From Thermodesulfovibrionia bacterium (GTDB lineage: Bacteria > Nitrospirota > Thermodesulfovibrionia > UBA6902): a DNA stretch of 35,479 nucleotides. The number at the start of each line of letters is the position of its first letter. Within the stretch, counting starts at the first letter, position 1. Below the pieces are notes generated by a model. The model did not search any database and was not told the origin of the DNA. It worked only from the letters and a program-made list of their open reading frames with translations. The stretch is taken from assembly GCA_947259645.1 (NCBI GenBank), contig CAMYND010000022.1, forward strand, positions 1 through 35,479. Reading direction: 5' to 3'. This document shows, in pieces, positions 11,311-20,229 of this stretch. The position numbers and the translations under genes were made by a program.

Positions 11311-12390
11311 ATGAACAGAAAAACAGTTACAGCATTGTTGCTCTCCCTTTTGTTTCTCTGCCCCTCTTTTGCCGGGGCTGAGGAAAACCCCTGGACCCAT
11401 ACCTTTTATTTTGAGAATGACCTTTTTACGGGAACGGACAGCAACTATACAAACGGAATCAAGTATTCGCTCATCTCTCCTGATTTATCACCTCGTGCAG
11501 ATGACGGTAAACTGCCAAGAAAGGTTTTGGAATATATACATCGTATTCCATTTATTCGGGAATCAGAACCTCAGTATACCCACAAAGTCGAATTTTCAAT
11601 CGGCCAGAACATCTTTACTCCTGCTGACATCTCACAGGGTGGGCTGATAAAGGATGATAGACCCTATGCGGGCTGGACCTATGTTTCCACCTCCTATCAC
11701 AGAAAAAGCAGCAGCCCGGATACTGTTTCATTCATGGATTCAGTTGAAGTCCAGATCGGCATTGTCGGTCCCGAGTCATTCGCGGAACAATCACAAAGAC
11801 TGATCCATAAGATACGCGACCTCCAGCGACCAAACGGCTGGGACAACCAGCTCAAAAACGAGCCGGGGCTGGCAATGGTGTTTGAAAGAAAATGGCTTTT
11901 TCACCCCGGCAAACGTGAAAAGCCCGGGTACAGCTTCATAACACACGCCGGGGGAGCACTCGGAAATGTTCACACATACCTGAACAGTGGCTGCGAACTG
12001 CGGCTCGGATGGAACATCCCCGAAGATTTCGGGGTATCCATCATTCGACCGGCCGGCAGCACACGACTTTCGATCGGAAAGGATTTCAGCATATACGGCT
12101 TTGCCGCTGTCAACGGCCGTCTTGTGTTTCAAGATGTCTTCCTTGACGGAAATACATTTACCGACAGTCACAGCATCGACAAGAAAATCCCGGTTGCTGA
12201 TGTTGCCGCGGGTCTTGCCATTAATTTCAGACATTTTATTATCTCCTGGACCCAGGTCCTCAGGACAAAGGAATTCAAGGGCCAGGAACGTGCGCACAGC
12301 TTTGGTGCCCTGGCAGTTTCATATTCCTTTCCCTATGATCTACGCAATTTGCTGGAAGACCGCCTGGAGTTACTTGCGGGACTGGACTAA
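11311..12390 (+). CDS. lpxR: LpxR-family lipid A 3'-O-deacylase (DUF2219), outer membrane
   Basis: A 359-residue protein with a Sec signal peptide (1 to about 23, cleavage after PSFAGA). The mature start has FENDLFTGTDSNYTNG, giving the active-site Asn36-Asp37; KDDRPYAGW and the segment QRLIHKI...GWDNQLKNEPG supply the conserved Gln, His and Glu. The rest alternates strands of a 12-stranded outer-membrane barrel and ends in SYSFPYDLRN. LpxR removes the 3'-acyloxyacyl chain of lipid A, altering the outer leaflet. All expected catalytic residues are visible, so it is probably active. It stands alone between the DksA-like gene and a convergent small gene. Confidence 0.85.
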   Translation: MNRKTVTALLLSLLFLCPSFAGAEENPWTHTFYFENDLFTGTDSNYTNGIKYSLISPDLSPRADDGKLPRKVLEYIHRIPFIRESEPQYTHKVEFSIGQNIFTPADISQGGLIKDDRPYAGWTYVSTSYHRKSSSPDTVSFMDSVEVQIGIVGPESFAEQSQRLIHKIRDLQRPNGWDNQLKNEPGLAMVFERKWLFHPGKREKPGYSFITHAGGALGNVHTYLNSGCELRLGWNIPEDFGVSIIRPAGSTRLSIGKDFSIYGFAAVNGRLVFQDVFLDGNTFTDSHSIDKKIPVADVAAGLAINFRHFIISWTQVLRTKEFKGQERAHSFGALAVSYSFPYDLRNLLEDRLELLAGLD

Positions 12391-14266: not shown

Positions 14267-15511
14267 ATGGTAGAATACGGTGTGATGAGAACACCTGAGT
14301 TGCTGGCCCCCGCAGGAAATTATGAAAAACTGAAAACAGCCCTTCACTACGGGGCGGACGCTGTGTATGCGGGATTATCAGGGTTCAGCCTCAGGGCCAA
14401 GGCTGATAATTTCTCGCTGGAAACTTTGAAGGAAGCTGTTCAGCTTGTCCATCAGAAGAACAAGAAAATCTATATAACTCTTAATATATTCCCTCATAAC
14501 AGAGATATCGCTTCAATAAAAAAACACCTGCTTGACCTGAGAGAAATCAAGCCCGACGCGCTCATTATCTCTGATGCGGGAATAGTTGAGCTGGCCGCTG
14601 AAACAGCACCTGAAATCCCTGTTCACATCAGTACGCAGGCCAATATCACAAACTACCGGTCCGCGCGATTCTGGGAAAAGATCGGGGCAAAAAGGCTCGT
14701 CCTTTCACGGGAGCTTTCTCTCGATGAAATCAGAGAGATCCGGGATAACGTTTCTCTGGAACTGGAGTGCTTCGTGCACGGCTCCATGTGCATATCCTAT
14801 TCAGGGAGATGTTATATGAGCAGCTTCATCAACAACCGCTCAGGAAACCGGGGGGAATGCACCAACACATGCAGATGGGATTTTACGTTAATGGAAAACA
14901 GCAGACCCGGGACCTACTATCCTGTATATGAAGACGACAGGGGAACATACGTGATGAGTTCACGGGACCTCTGCATGATCGAACACCTTGACAAGCTCGC
15001 TGATGCTGGCGTGACGAGTTTCAAAATCGAGGGAAGAATGAAAGGCATAAATTATGTGGCCGGTGTTGTCAAGACATACAGGGAAGCCGTCGACAGTCTT
15101 CAGGAGAGTCCCTTCAAGGTTAAAGAACAGTGGATGCAGGAGATAGCAATGTCTTCAAACAGGGGATTTACAACCGGCATGTTCTTCGGCAAACAGCCTG
15201 ATGAGGGATACAACCATGATGATACTCAGTCTTATACAATGACCCACGAGCTTGTCGGTGTAGTTCAGTCCCTCAATAATGGCAGTGCGGTAATTGCATT
15301 GAGAAATAACCTCAGGGTGGGAGACACGATAGAGTTCCTCACACCGGGCCTTGAAAACATCCCGCATAAAGTTCATGCAATCCATGACAGCAATGGGAGT
15401 CCGGCTGAAACCGGGAGAAATGAAGAAATCGTCTCAATCCCGATTGTTAAGGGCATCAGGAAAAACGATCTCATACGCCGCCCCCTGAAACAGGATGAGA
15501 GTCCGGAATGA
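14267..15511 (+). CDS. trhP: U32-family protein, TrhP/YegQ-like tRNA hydroxylation enzyme
   Basis: The protein has 414 residues. PELLAPAGNYEKLKTAL, YGADAVYAG, HISTQANITN, the cysteine-rich HGSMCISYSGRC and NRGECTNTCRW segments and SFKIEGRMKG are hallmarks of the U32 family. The four cysteines in the second and third motifs match the cluster or substrate-site cysteines of RlhA/TrhP, which hydroxylate rRNA or tRNA from a prephenate donor. The length and C-terminal region fit TrhP (wobble ho5U34) better than collagenase-like members. ATG 14267 or 14285 are both possible. The stop overlaps the selenoprotein start by 4 nt (ATGA), so the two are translationally coupled. Confidence 0.82.
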   Translation: MVEYGVMRTPELLAPAGNYEKLKTALHYGADAVYAGLSGFSLRAKADNFSLETLKEAVQLVHQKNKKIYITLNIFPHNRDIASIKKHLLDLREIKPDALIISDAGIVELAAETAPEIPVHISTQANITNYRSARFWEKIGAKRLVLSRELSLDEIREIRDNVSLELECFVHGSMCISYSGRCYMSSFINNRSGNRGECTNTCRWDFTLMENSRPGTYYPVYEDDRGTYVMSSRDLCMIEHLDKLADAGVTSFKIEGRMKGINYVAGVVKTYREAVDSLQESPFKVKEQWMQEIAMSSNRGFTTGMFFGKQPDEGYNHDDTQSYTMTHELVGVVQSLNNGSAVIALRNNLRVGDTIEFLTPGLENIPHKVHAIHDSNGSPAETGRNEEIVSIPIVKGIRKNDLIRRPLKQDESPE

Positions 15512-15762
15512 ACAAACCGATTAACATCGAAATAATATACTGTGTTGAGTGAGGCTACAAAGATAAAGCCGCCGGTCTGGCGGCAGCGATTAAGGCTGAA
15601 TGTGCAATCCCCGCGTTGTTAGTTGAAGGCCATGACAAAATATTTGAAGTTGCTGTCAACGGAGACAGCATATACACAAACAACAGGCAGTGCGGAAAAT
15701 TGCCTGATTCCGCTGAAATAATTCAGAAGATCAAAGAAATTGATCATACTCATCAGAGATAA
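15508..15762 (+). CDS. SelW/Rdx-family selenoprotein with in-frame UGA
   Basis: The frame starts at the ATG overlapping the trhP stop, meets TGA at 15550-15552 and continues to TAA at 15760-15762: 84 residues if UGA is selenocysteine. It reads MNKPINIEIIYCVEUGYKD around the UGA, a CxxU redox motif (Cys12, Sec15) after the first beta strand exactly as in SelW/SelT/SelH (Rdx) proteins. AGLAAAIKAE, FEVAVNGDSIYTN and CGKLPDSAEIIQKIKEI fit the helix, strands and last helix of that thioredoxin-like fold. The UGA is followed by a SECIS-like hairpin. As ordinary annotation it would be split or missed. It is probably a redox or selenium-handling protein; the reaction is unknown for the family. Confidence 0.85.
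15568..15584 (+). promoter_or_regulatory. Bacterial SECIS hairpin, 15 nt after the UGA
   Basis: GCCGCC (15568-15573) pairs with GGCGGC (15579-15584) around the loop GGTCT. The E. coli fdhF SECIS also presents a GGUCU loop. The 15-nt gap from UGA to stem is close to that of known bacterial SECIS elements. SelB binding is inferred. Confidence 0.75.
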
Positions 15763-15969: not shown

Positions 15970-16404
15970 ATGCAATATGTTGTTTGGTGTAATATGTATT
16001 GCATCAATGTGCCATACATAGACGACCAGCACAGGAACCTGCTGGAAATTATTAACAGGTATCATGATGCGGTTTCATCGGGCAAGAGCAGGGAATCAAT
16101 CTTTGAGACATTAAATGCGCTTATTAAATATACTGAAGAGCATTTCCGCGATGAGGAAGAGATAATGGCCCTTTCAGATTGCCCTCCCGGGGAAATCGAA
16201 GAACATAAGAAGCTGCATGAACAGTTAGTAAGTGACATATTCAGGCTCCACAGTGATTATGCCAACGGCAAAGAGCCAGTCGTCCATGACATGGAATTAT
16301 TTCTGAATGACTGGCTGATCAAGCACATTCTCATAGCAGACAAGAAGCTGACTCCCTACTGTAAGAATCTCAGACATTACGAACGAAACCGGGGACAGGC
16401 CTGA
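15970..16404 (+). CDS. Bacteriohemerythrin, O2-binding di-iron protein
   Basis: A 144-residue single-domain hemerythrin. All seven di-iron ligands are found: His21 (DDQH), His58 and Glu62 (EEHFRDEE), His79 and His83 (EEHKKLH), His119 and Asp124 (KHILIAD). Soluble, cytoplasmic, no signal peptide. It binds O2, and may sense or store it, a common feature in microaerophiles. AGGGAGGAG lies before the ATG. It stands alone, between the selenoprotein and an ABC ATPase. The N-terminal WCNMYCINV has two cysteines that most homologues lack. Confidence 0.92.
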   Translation: MQYVVWCNMYCINVPYIDDQHRNLLEIINRYHDAVSSGKSRESIFETLNALIKYTEEHFRDEEEIMALSDCPPGEIEEHKKLHEQLVSDIFRLHSDYANGKEPVVHDMELFLNDWLIKHILIADKKLTPYCKNLRHYERNRGQA

Positions 16405-18111: not shown

Positions 18112-20229
18112 CTAGCCGACTTTTATTTTCCAGCGGGTATCGTCTTTCTTGTCTTCAAGAATAATGCCCTGTTCCAGGAGTTCTTTTCTTATGCGGTCAG
18201 CAGTTCCCCAATCTTTTGCTTCCCGTGCCTCCTGCCGCTGCTTAATTTTCATTTCAAGGTCCTCTTCCGAAAGGCCTATGCTCTTGACTTTCATTAACGA
18301 GGAGTACCATTGAACAGGAGTCTTGTTAAAAATGTTCAATATCCCTCCGGCCTCAACAAGGAGTTCCCGGGCCTTTGTGACTATTCTTCCGGCTGTTTCG
18401 CCGGACACCCCGGAATCGAGGTATTTGTTAATCTCCCGAATAAGTTCAAAAATATACCCCAGCGCAGAAGCGGTATTGAAGTCGTCATTCATTGCATTAC
18501 GGAATTTATCCATAAAGTCAGTAATCAGGCCTTCAATCTCTGCGGTGCTCCCGGGCTTGTCCTTTTTCCCTGCTGTTTCAAGAAAATCATTTATTCTCAG
18601 GAACGTTGTATAGTACCTGTCGATCGAATGCTCTGCCTCATTGAGCTGGACATCTGAAAACTCAATAGGGCTCCTGTAATGTGCGGTCAGAAGAAAATAT
18701 CTCACAACTTCAGGTTCGTATCTGTTCAGTATCTCCTTGATAGTGAAAAAGTTCCCGAGCGACTTGGACATCTTTTCTTTATCAACGGTAATAAATCCGT
18801 TGTGCACCCAGTATTTCACAAAAGGCTTTCCAGTGTAAGCTTCGCTCTGGGCAATCTCATTCTCATGGTGGGGAAATGTGAGATCAGCTCCTCCTCCATG
18901 AATATCAAAGCTCTCTCCCAGGTACTTTGATGACATGGCAGTGCACTCAATGTGCCATCCTGGCCTGCCTTTGCCCCAGGGGCTTTCCCACCAGGGCTCG
19001 CCCTCTTTTGAGGCCTTCCAGAGCGCAAAATCAAGAGGGCTCTTTTTCCTTTCATCCACATCCACTCTGGCGCCGGACAGCAGGTCATCAATATTCTTTT
19101 TTGACAACTTTCCGTATGTCGGAAATTTATTTACTTCAAAATACACGTCACCGTCAACAGGATAGGCAAAGCCTTTATCAATAAGAACGCCAATGGCATC
19201 AACCATCTCTTTGATATGATCAGTGGCGTTCGGCTCTATATCAGCCCTTCCCACGCCGAGCAATTCCATGTCATGGTAATACTCATCAGTGTATTTTTTC
19301 GCCACTTCATCTGTGGAAATGCCTTCCTCGGCAGCCCGCGCTATAATCTTGTCATCAATATCCGTAATATTTCTCACATGGGTAACGTCATACCCGCTGT
19401 ATCGCAAATATCGCTTCATAATGTCAAACACTATCGCGCTTCGTGCGTGCCCGAGATGGCATACATCATAGGCAGTGATCCCGCATACATACATACCCGT
19501 TTTCCCCTCGACCTGGGGCACAAATTCTTCTTTTTTCCCGCTGAGTGTGTTATAGATTTTAATCATCTCTCCTTTGCCTTCCAACCTGCTTATTCTCCTT
19601 TCAAGTTCAGTTATGTATGTCCTGAATTCCTCAAATTTATCTTCAAGAGGATCAGGAAGATGCACATGGTCGAGCATTTCTACCGGCCCTTCATCAAGAA
19701 TCTTTACGACCCTCCTTTTAATGACCCGACCCGGAACACCCACAACAATAGAATTCTCCGGAACACTGTGCAGTACCACAGAGTTCGCACCAATTTTAAC
19801 ATTATCACTGATAGAGATGGCCCCGAGGACTTTAGCACCAGCCCCGACAACGATGTTGCTTCCCAGCGTCGGATGCCTCTTGCCTTTCTCCTTGCCAGTT
19901 CCTCCCAGGGTCACGCCCTGGTAGAGCAGGCAGTTCTCGCCTATTTCTGTTGTTTCTCCGACAACCACACCCATGCCATGGTCAATAAAGAAACCCCTGC
20001 CAATTTTCGCACCCGGATGTATCTCAATACCGGTTATAATTTTTGCCAGTTGAGAAAAAAACCGTGGCAAGAAGGGAATGCCGGCATTCCACAACAGGTG
20101 ATTAAGACGGTGGAATACAATCGCGTGAAACCCCGAATAGGAGAGGACAACTTCAAGAGAACTCCTGGCTGCAGGATCCATCTTAAAAACTGTTTTATAA
20201 TCAGACCTTATGTCATCCCACAATTTCAT
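18112..20229 (-). CDS. cysE/cysS: Fused serine O-acetyltransferase and cysteinyl-tRNA synthetase
   Basis: One uninterrupted 705-residue frame. Residues 1-221 are CysE: hexapeptide-repeat acyltransferase with IHPGA (70-74), FIDHGMG with Asp83-His84, GVTLGG (105-110) and RHP (118-120), ending in a coiled-coil-like segment (LEDKFEEFRTYITELERRIS). Residues 222-705 are CysS of normal length: zinc cysteine YVCG (249), HLGH signature (258-261), WHIECTAMS, DLTFPHHENE and KMSKS (486-490). CysE makes O-acetylserine for cysteine synthesis; CysS charges tRNA-Cys. The ATG of the CysS part (19566) has AAAGGAG right before it, so free CysS could also be made. No stop or frameshift separates the halves. Confidence 0.9.
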   Translation of the reverse strand: MKLWDDIRSDYKTVFKMDPAARSSLEVVLSYSGFHAIVFHRLNHLLWNAGIPFLPRFFSQLAKIITGIEIHPGAKIGRGFFIDHGMGVVVGETTEIGENCLLYQGVTLGGTGKEKGKRHPTLGSNIVVGAGAKVLGAISISDNVKIGANSVVLHSVPENSIVVGVPGRVIKRRVVKILDEGPVEMLDHVHLPDPLEDKFEEFRTYITELERRISRLEGKGEMIKIYNTLSGKKEEFVPQVEGKTGMYVCGITAYDVCHLGHARSAIVFDIMKRYLRYSGYDVTHVRNITDIDDKIIARAAEEGISTDEVAKKYTDEYYHDMELLGVGRADIEPNATDHIKEMVDAIGVLIDKGFAYPVDGDVYFEVNKFPTYGKLSKKNIDDLLSGARVDVDERKKSPLDFALWKASKEGEPWWESPWGKGRPGWHIECTAMSSKYLGESFDIHGGGADLTFPHHENEIAQSEAYTGKPFVKYWVHNGFITVDKEKMSKSLGNFFTIKEILNRYEPEVVRYFLLTAHYRSPIEFSDVQLNEAEHSIDRYYTTFLRINDFLETAGKKDKPGSTAEIEGLITDFMDKFRNAMNDDFNTASALGYIFELIREINKYLDSGVSGETAGRIVTKARELLVEAGGILNIFNKTPVQWYSSLMKVKSIGLSEEDLEMKIKQRQEAREAKDWGTADRIRKELLEQGIILEDKKDDTRWKIKVG

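Follow-up and report, generated by a model that had tools for sequence, protein, structure and literature searches.

The question raised by this locus is whether a TGA lying early in a short reading frame ends translation there or specifies selenocysteine (Sec). The frame was found in a 35,479-nt contig from a Thermodesulfovibrionia bacterium (the window, meaning the whole stretch of DNA analysed), where it starts at ATG 15508, contains 84 sense codons, and ends at TAA 15760-15762; the TGA at 15550-15552 (codon 15) is its sole in-frame stop. The original prediction had described an 84-codon frame at 15508-15762 with a single in-frame UGA at 15550 and a CVEU motif once that UGA is read as Sec. 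On re-reading, all of its coordinates proved right, and the read-through product (MNKPINIEIIYCVEUGYKDKAAGLAAAIK...) carries the motif at C12-V-E-U15. Ten one-UGA frames of at least 60 codons were present outside the long ORFs of the window, and the SelW-like frame alone was recognised as a member of such a family, the other nine having been judged by eye. Ordinary gene finders would miss such a gene or truncate it at the internal UGA. The features discussed below are as follows.

14285-15511, + strand: trhP (peptidase U32 family), the upstream gene, with a start possibly at ATG 14267 instead (PF01136, E=2.9e-99; PF16325).
15508-15762, + strand: selW-like (Rdx family) putative selenoprotein gene, 84 aa, with Sec as residue 15 (read-through translation, PF10262, TIGR02174, AlphaFold model).
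15550-15552, + strand: in-frame UGA, almost certainly Sec and the second redox residue of CxxU (UGA at this column in 10 class loci, and Cys in each other homologue examined in detail).
15568-15584, + strand: candidate SECIS hairpin with a 6-bp stem and a GGUCU apical loop (folding, covariation in UGA homologues, fit to the published bSECIS model).

The read-through product was assigned to the SelW-like proteins by two family profiles, both of whose matches cross the UGA and exceed the curated cut-offs, namely Pfam Rdx PF10262 (E=1.1e-9, 38.8 bits, cut-off 22.6) and NCBIfam SelT/SelW/SelH TIGR02174 (39.1 bits, cut-off 34.2). It scored 47.9 bits against NF041051 (SelTWH_Campy), below the cut-off of 88, and is thus not that specific equivalog. 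An AlphaFold model (pLDDT 82) placed a strand at residues 7-12, the CVEU loop at 12-15, and a helix at 18-32, followed by three strands and one helix, which is a predicted thioredoxin-like fold in which the CxxC/CxxU motif joins the first strand to the first helix. When the model was compared with the PDB, 22 chains matched at E<=0.001 with TM scores of about 0.7-0.8, every one SelW-type; the closest, with TM of about 0.8, were the SelW-related structures 2OBK, 2FA8, and 2P0G and mouse SelW (2NPB), with thioredoxins far behind, and the homologue profile also found solved SelW-type proteins and mouse SelW. The profile matches and the predicted fold agree with the claim of a SelW/SelT-type fold with the motif after the first strand and family-like residues downstream. 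The fold and motif position are common to the window protein, the bacterial Rdx structures 2FA8, 2OBK, 2OKA, 2OJL, 2P0G, and 3DEX, and mouse SelW 2NPB, with 19-27% identity in the fold alignments; 2FA8, the only structure seen aligned at the Sec position, has Cys there, whereas the window protein would have Sec. These same elements bear on the proposal that translation starts past the UGA, for example at TTG 15616, to give a short protein of 48 codons without Sec. An ORF from TTG 15616 to 15762 does exist mechanically, yet its product would begin past the active site and past both the first strand and the first helix, and homologues conserve the UGA and the CxxU motif along with that strand, leaving this proposal scarcely credible.

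Homologues were obtained from whole-genome searches of 230 genomes of the class Thermodesulfovibrionia, a single-protein query against genome contigs having returned no match. Matches were recovered from 24 of the 230 genomes. Ten class loci have UGA at exactly the query column (that of the window, one from the same genus, and eight more distant), whereas 16 further class matches are free of a stop at that position, with Cys in a CxxC motif wherever the sequence was read in detail; the in-frame UGA is thus aligned with a homologue Cys, and the search for Cys-containing homologues suggested with the original prediction was borne out. Within the taxonomic family of the window, the UGA form was found only in its own and the same-genus genome, the Cys form occurred in one other, and the gene was absent from the rest. 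On the tree the UGA forms were clustered (2 changes vs 8.3 shuffled), and a single UGA clade, present in 12% of bootstrap trees, was not resolved. Two other Rdx-like UGA frames were left out of the UGA count: one in genome G089 (L044, near 1501), in which the first Cys is replaced by Trp (WVVU) and the C-terminus is missing, and which is perhaps a decaying Sec form, and a distant one with CPSU in genome G299.

The patchy occurrence of the family among relatives, together with the nonsense codon that an ordinary gene caller would report, could also describe a decayed Cys-type rdx gene, with the UGA as a nonsense mutation that ends translation after 14 residues. The nearest relative, from the same genus, retains the UGA together with the reading frame that follows it: 39 of 62 downstream residues are identical, and 32 of 59 nucleotide differences fall at third positions; dN was 0.24 and dS 2.1 (saturated), for a dN/dS of about 0.12. 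Comparison of the two sequences indicates that the downstream frame is under purifying selection in the genus, with the saturation of dS in mind, and the opposite pattern would be expected after a nonsense mutation or in a non-coding frame. Moreover, eight more distant genomes keep the UGA with compensated changes in the hairpin, and a chance nonsense change would not repeatedly strike the catalytic column, so that decay of a Cys-type gene is exceedingly unlikely.

Reading of the UGA as Sec further calls for a decoding apparatus, which the original prediction had assumed and had proposed to look for as selA, selB, selC, and selD. All four were found in the window's own assembly (99.6% complete): selB (369 bits), selA (615 bits) immediately upstream of it, tRNA-Sec (selC; 72 bits against a gathering score of 47), and a selD with its own in-frame UGA in the active-site motif GGUAAK, which itself needs Sec decoding because of that codon. 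This gene complement supports the assumption that the organism decodes Sec, and the genome, as judged from its genes, can do so. Read-through alone does not identify the residue inserted, and reassignment or leaky suppression might be proposed to insert Trp, Gly, or some other residue in place of Sec; however, UGA is a stop in this genome, since trhP directly upstream terminates at TGA, the homologues have Cys at the column and not Trp or Gly, and the full Sec machinery is accompanied by a SECIS-fitting hairpin, so that non-Sec read-through retains next to no probability. In the same-genus assembly, which is fragmented into 640 contigs, selB and tRNA-Sec were not found; selA is cut by a contig end and a UGA-containing selD is present, so the missing genes are most simply explained by an assembly gap. 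Across the class, co-occurrence with the machinery does not discriminate between the forms, because genomes with the Cys form carry Sec machinery too. In each of five genomes of the set (G039, G188, G228, G229, and G064), two tRNA-Sec matches scored above the gathering score; the extra copies may be either true paralogues or contaminants.

A hairpin with a GGUCU loop had been claimed 15 nt past the UGA, and folding confirmed it: 15568-15573 (GCCGCC) pairs with 15579-15584 (GGCGGC) around the loop GGUCU at 15574-15578, the stem starting exactly 15 nt and the loop 21 nt after the UGA. The loop is, we presume, like that of the fdhF SECIS. The minimum free energy (MFE) is -13 to -15 kcal/mol, which is unexceptional against shuffles (z = -0.45 for a 61-nt stretch and -1.33 for 41 nt); energy alone makes it no outlier, and the argument for the hairpin is drawn from covariation and from its fit to the published model. 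Covariation was assessed in the ten UGA homologues over a gap-free alignment from the UGA to +42, in which 54 of 60 stem cells (90%) were paired and none of 500 shuffles reached the pairing or the covariation score. Three pairs were compensated (GC/CG, CG/UA, and CG/AU), a count of double changes that is less remarkable, being reached by 53 of 500 shuffles. Pairing fell to 25-60% when the partner was slid by 1-3 columns. The second loop position is an invariant G among the ten; one of the stem pairs is mismatched in the same-genus hairpin. Eleven Cys homologues encode a similar peptide, and in the stem columns they showed no excess of pairing (33 of 66 cells, 50%; reached by 242 of 500 shuffles); pairing in the UGA but not the Cys homologues argues that the stem is kept for recoding and is not a by-product of the peptide. 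The bSECIS model specifies a loop of 3-9 nt, a stem of 4-16 bp, a G in the first two loop positions, a UGA-to-loop distance of 16-37 nt, and an MFE of <= -7.5 kcal/mol (PMC13188914), and the window hairpin agrees on every point (5 nt, 6 bp, GG, 21 nt, and -13 to -15 kcal/mol). An Rfam scan of the window at gathering thresholds returned no match, and Rfam may hold no model for such a SECIS.

Taken together, the sequence data support the reading of a missed selenoprotein as right in kind, and neither of the results named beforehand as counting against it turned up, that is, a genome without selC/selB or close relatives that stop at this UGA. The internal UGA is almost certainly read as Sec, and we have little doubt that the frame encodes a genuine SelW-like selenoprotein of the bacterial kind, with Sec inserted at UGA 15550 via the SECIS at 15568-15584 and a thioredoxin-like CxxU redox product. 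The gene is probably co-transcribed with trhP, and translation would start at the ATGA overlap described below through re-initiation or coupling. The hairpin would then act as a bacterial SECIS, bound by SelB, which would bring Sec-tRNA-Sec to the ribosome for SelB-dependent insertion of Sec as residue 15. The predicted product, thioredoxin-like and 84 aa long, would have Sec in the CxxU loop that connects its first strand to its first helix, and from its family it is most likely a small thiol/selenol redox protein that would form a selenenylsulfide within CxxU and be recycled by the cellular thiol or thioredoxin system.

SelW-like selenoproteins (PF10262 Rdx, CxxU) are known from Sargasso Sea, bacterial genome, and ocean surveys; catalogues from 2005-2006 already include the bacterial ones, which rank among the most common selenoproteins of the sea and are recorded from Deltaproteobacteria, Clostridia, and Symbiobacterium (PMC1088965, PMC1794560, PMC2398784). 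Annotations of epsilonproteobacterial genomes missed SelW genes completely (PMC4607533), and for Campylobacter jejuni SelW (CJnc60, 80-81 aa) translation past the UGA has been shown by Ribo-seq and proteomics (PMC11955535). The window gene shares with the catalogued bacterial genes its length, Rdx fold, CxxU motif, UGA with adjacent bSECIS, Cys homologues, and Sec machinery, and differs in its Nitrospirota host and its 4-nt overlap with trhP; the C. jejuni gene was likewise unannotated with its UGA decoded as Sec, but read-through there is demonstrated, whereas Sec decoding at the window gene is predicted. In the open-access literature on Nitrospira and selenoproteins, two reviews name the phylum only in remarks on selB/selC overlap, so SelW in Nitrospirota may be unreported in that literature. 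Even so, what would be new is its location and not its kind: it is a convincing but unexceptional member of the SelW-like selenoproteins. It gives a little-cultured Nitrospirota lineage a well-supported selenoprotein whose SECIS covaries, and it illustrates that a gene which standard callers would cut short can be recovered by reading the raw sequence, while knowledge of Sec decoding and of the SelW family is unchanged.

The overlap of the start with the trhP stop, claimed to be 4 nt, was found in the sequence as ATGA at 15508-15511, in which the trhP stop TGA occupies 15509-15511. The overlap suggests translational coupling of the two genes. The trhP-Rdx arrangement was not found beyond the genus, a recognisable Rdx gene being present only at the same-genus locus in the flanking DNA examined for the 20 nearest trhP loci. 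A functional link specific to this genus can be imagined, in which ATGA couples Sec-dependent SelW synthesis to trhP (tRNA hydroxylation), with SelW giving TrhP a redox function or reporting selenium status to tRNA modification, and we consider it very unlikely. In the same-genus genome (L016), a 42-nt tandem duplication at 1459-1542 spans the trhP stop and the selW start; ahead of the real selW start it has left a remnant frame of 12 codons (MTKPINPETGEE). About 200 nt downstream of the selW-like gene, the window encodes a hemerythrin-domain protein (15970-16404, + strand; PF01814), and upstream of trhP an outer membrane LpxR-family protein (11311-12390, + strand; PF09982, E=1.6e-96). A single 705-aa frame at 18112-20229 (- strand) matches PF00132 and then PF01406, DALR_2, and CysS_C, and its domain order suggests that it is apparently a CysE-CysS fusion of a hexapeptide serine-acetyltransferase-like N-terminus and a cysteinyl-tRNA synthetase.
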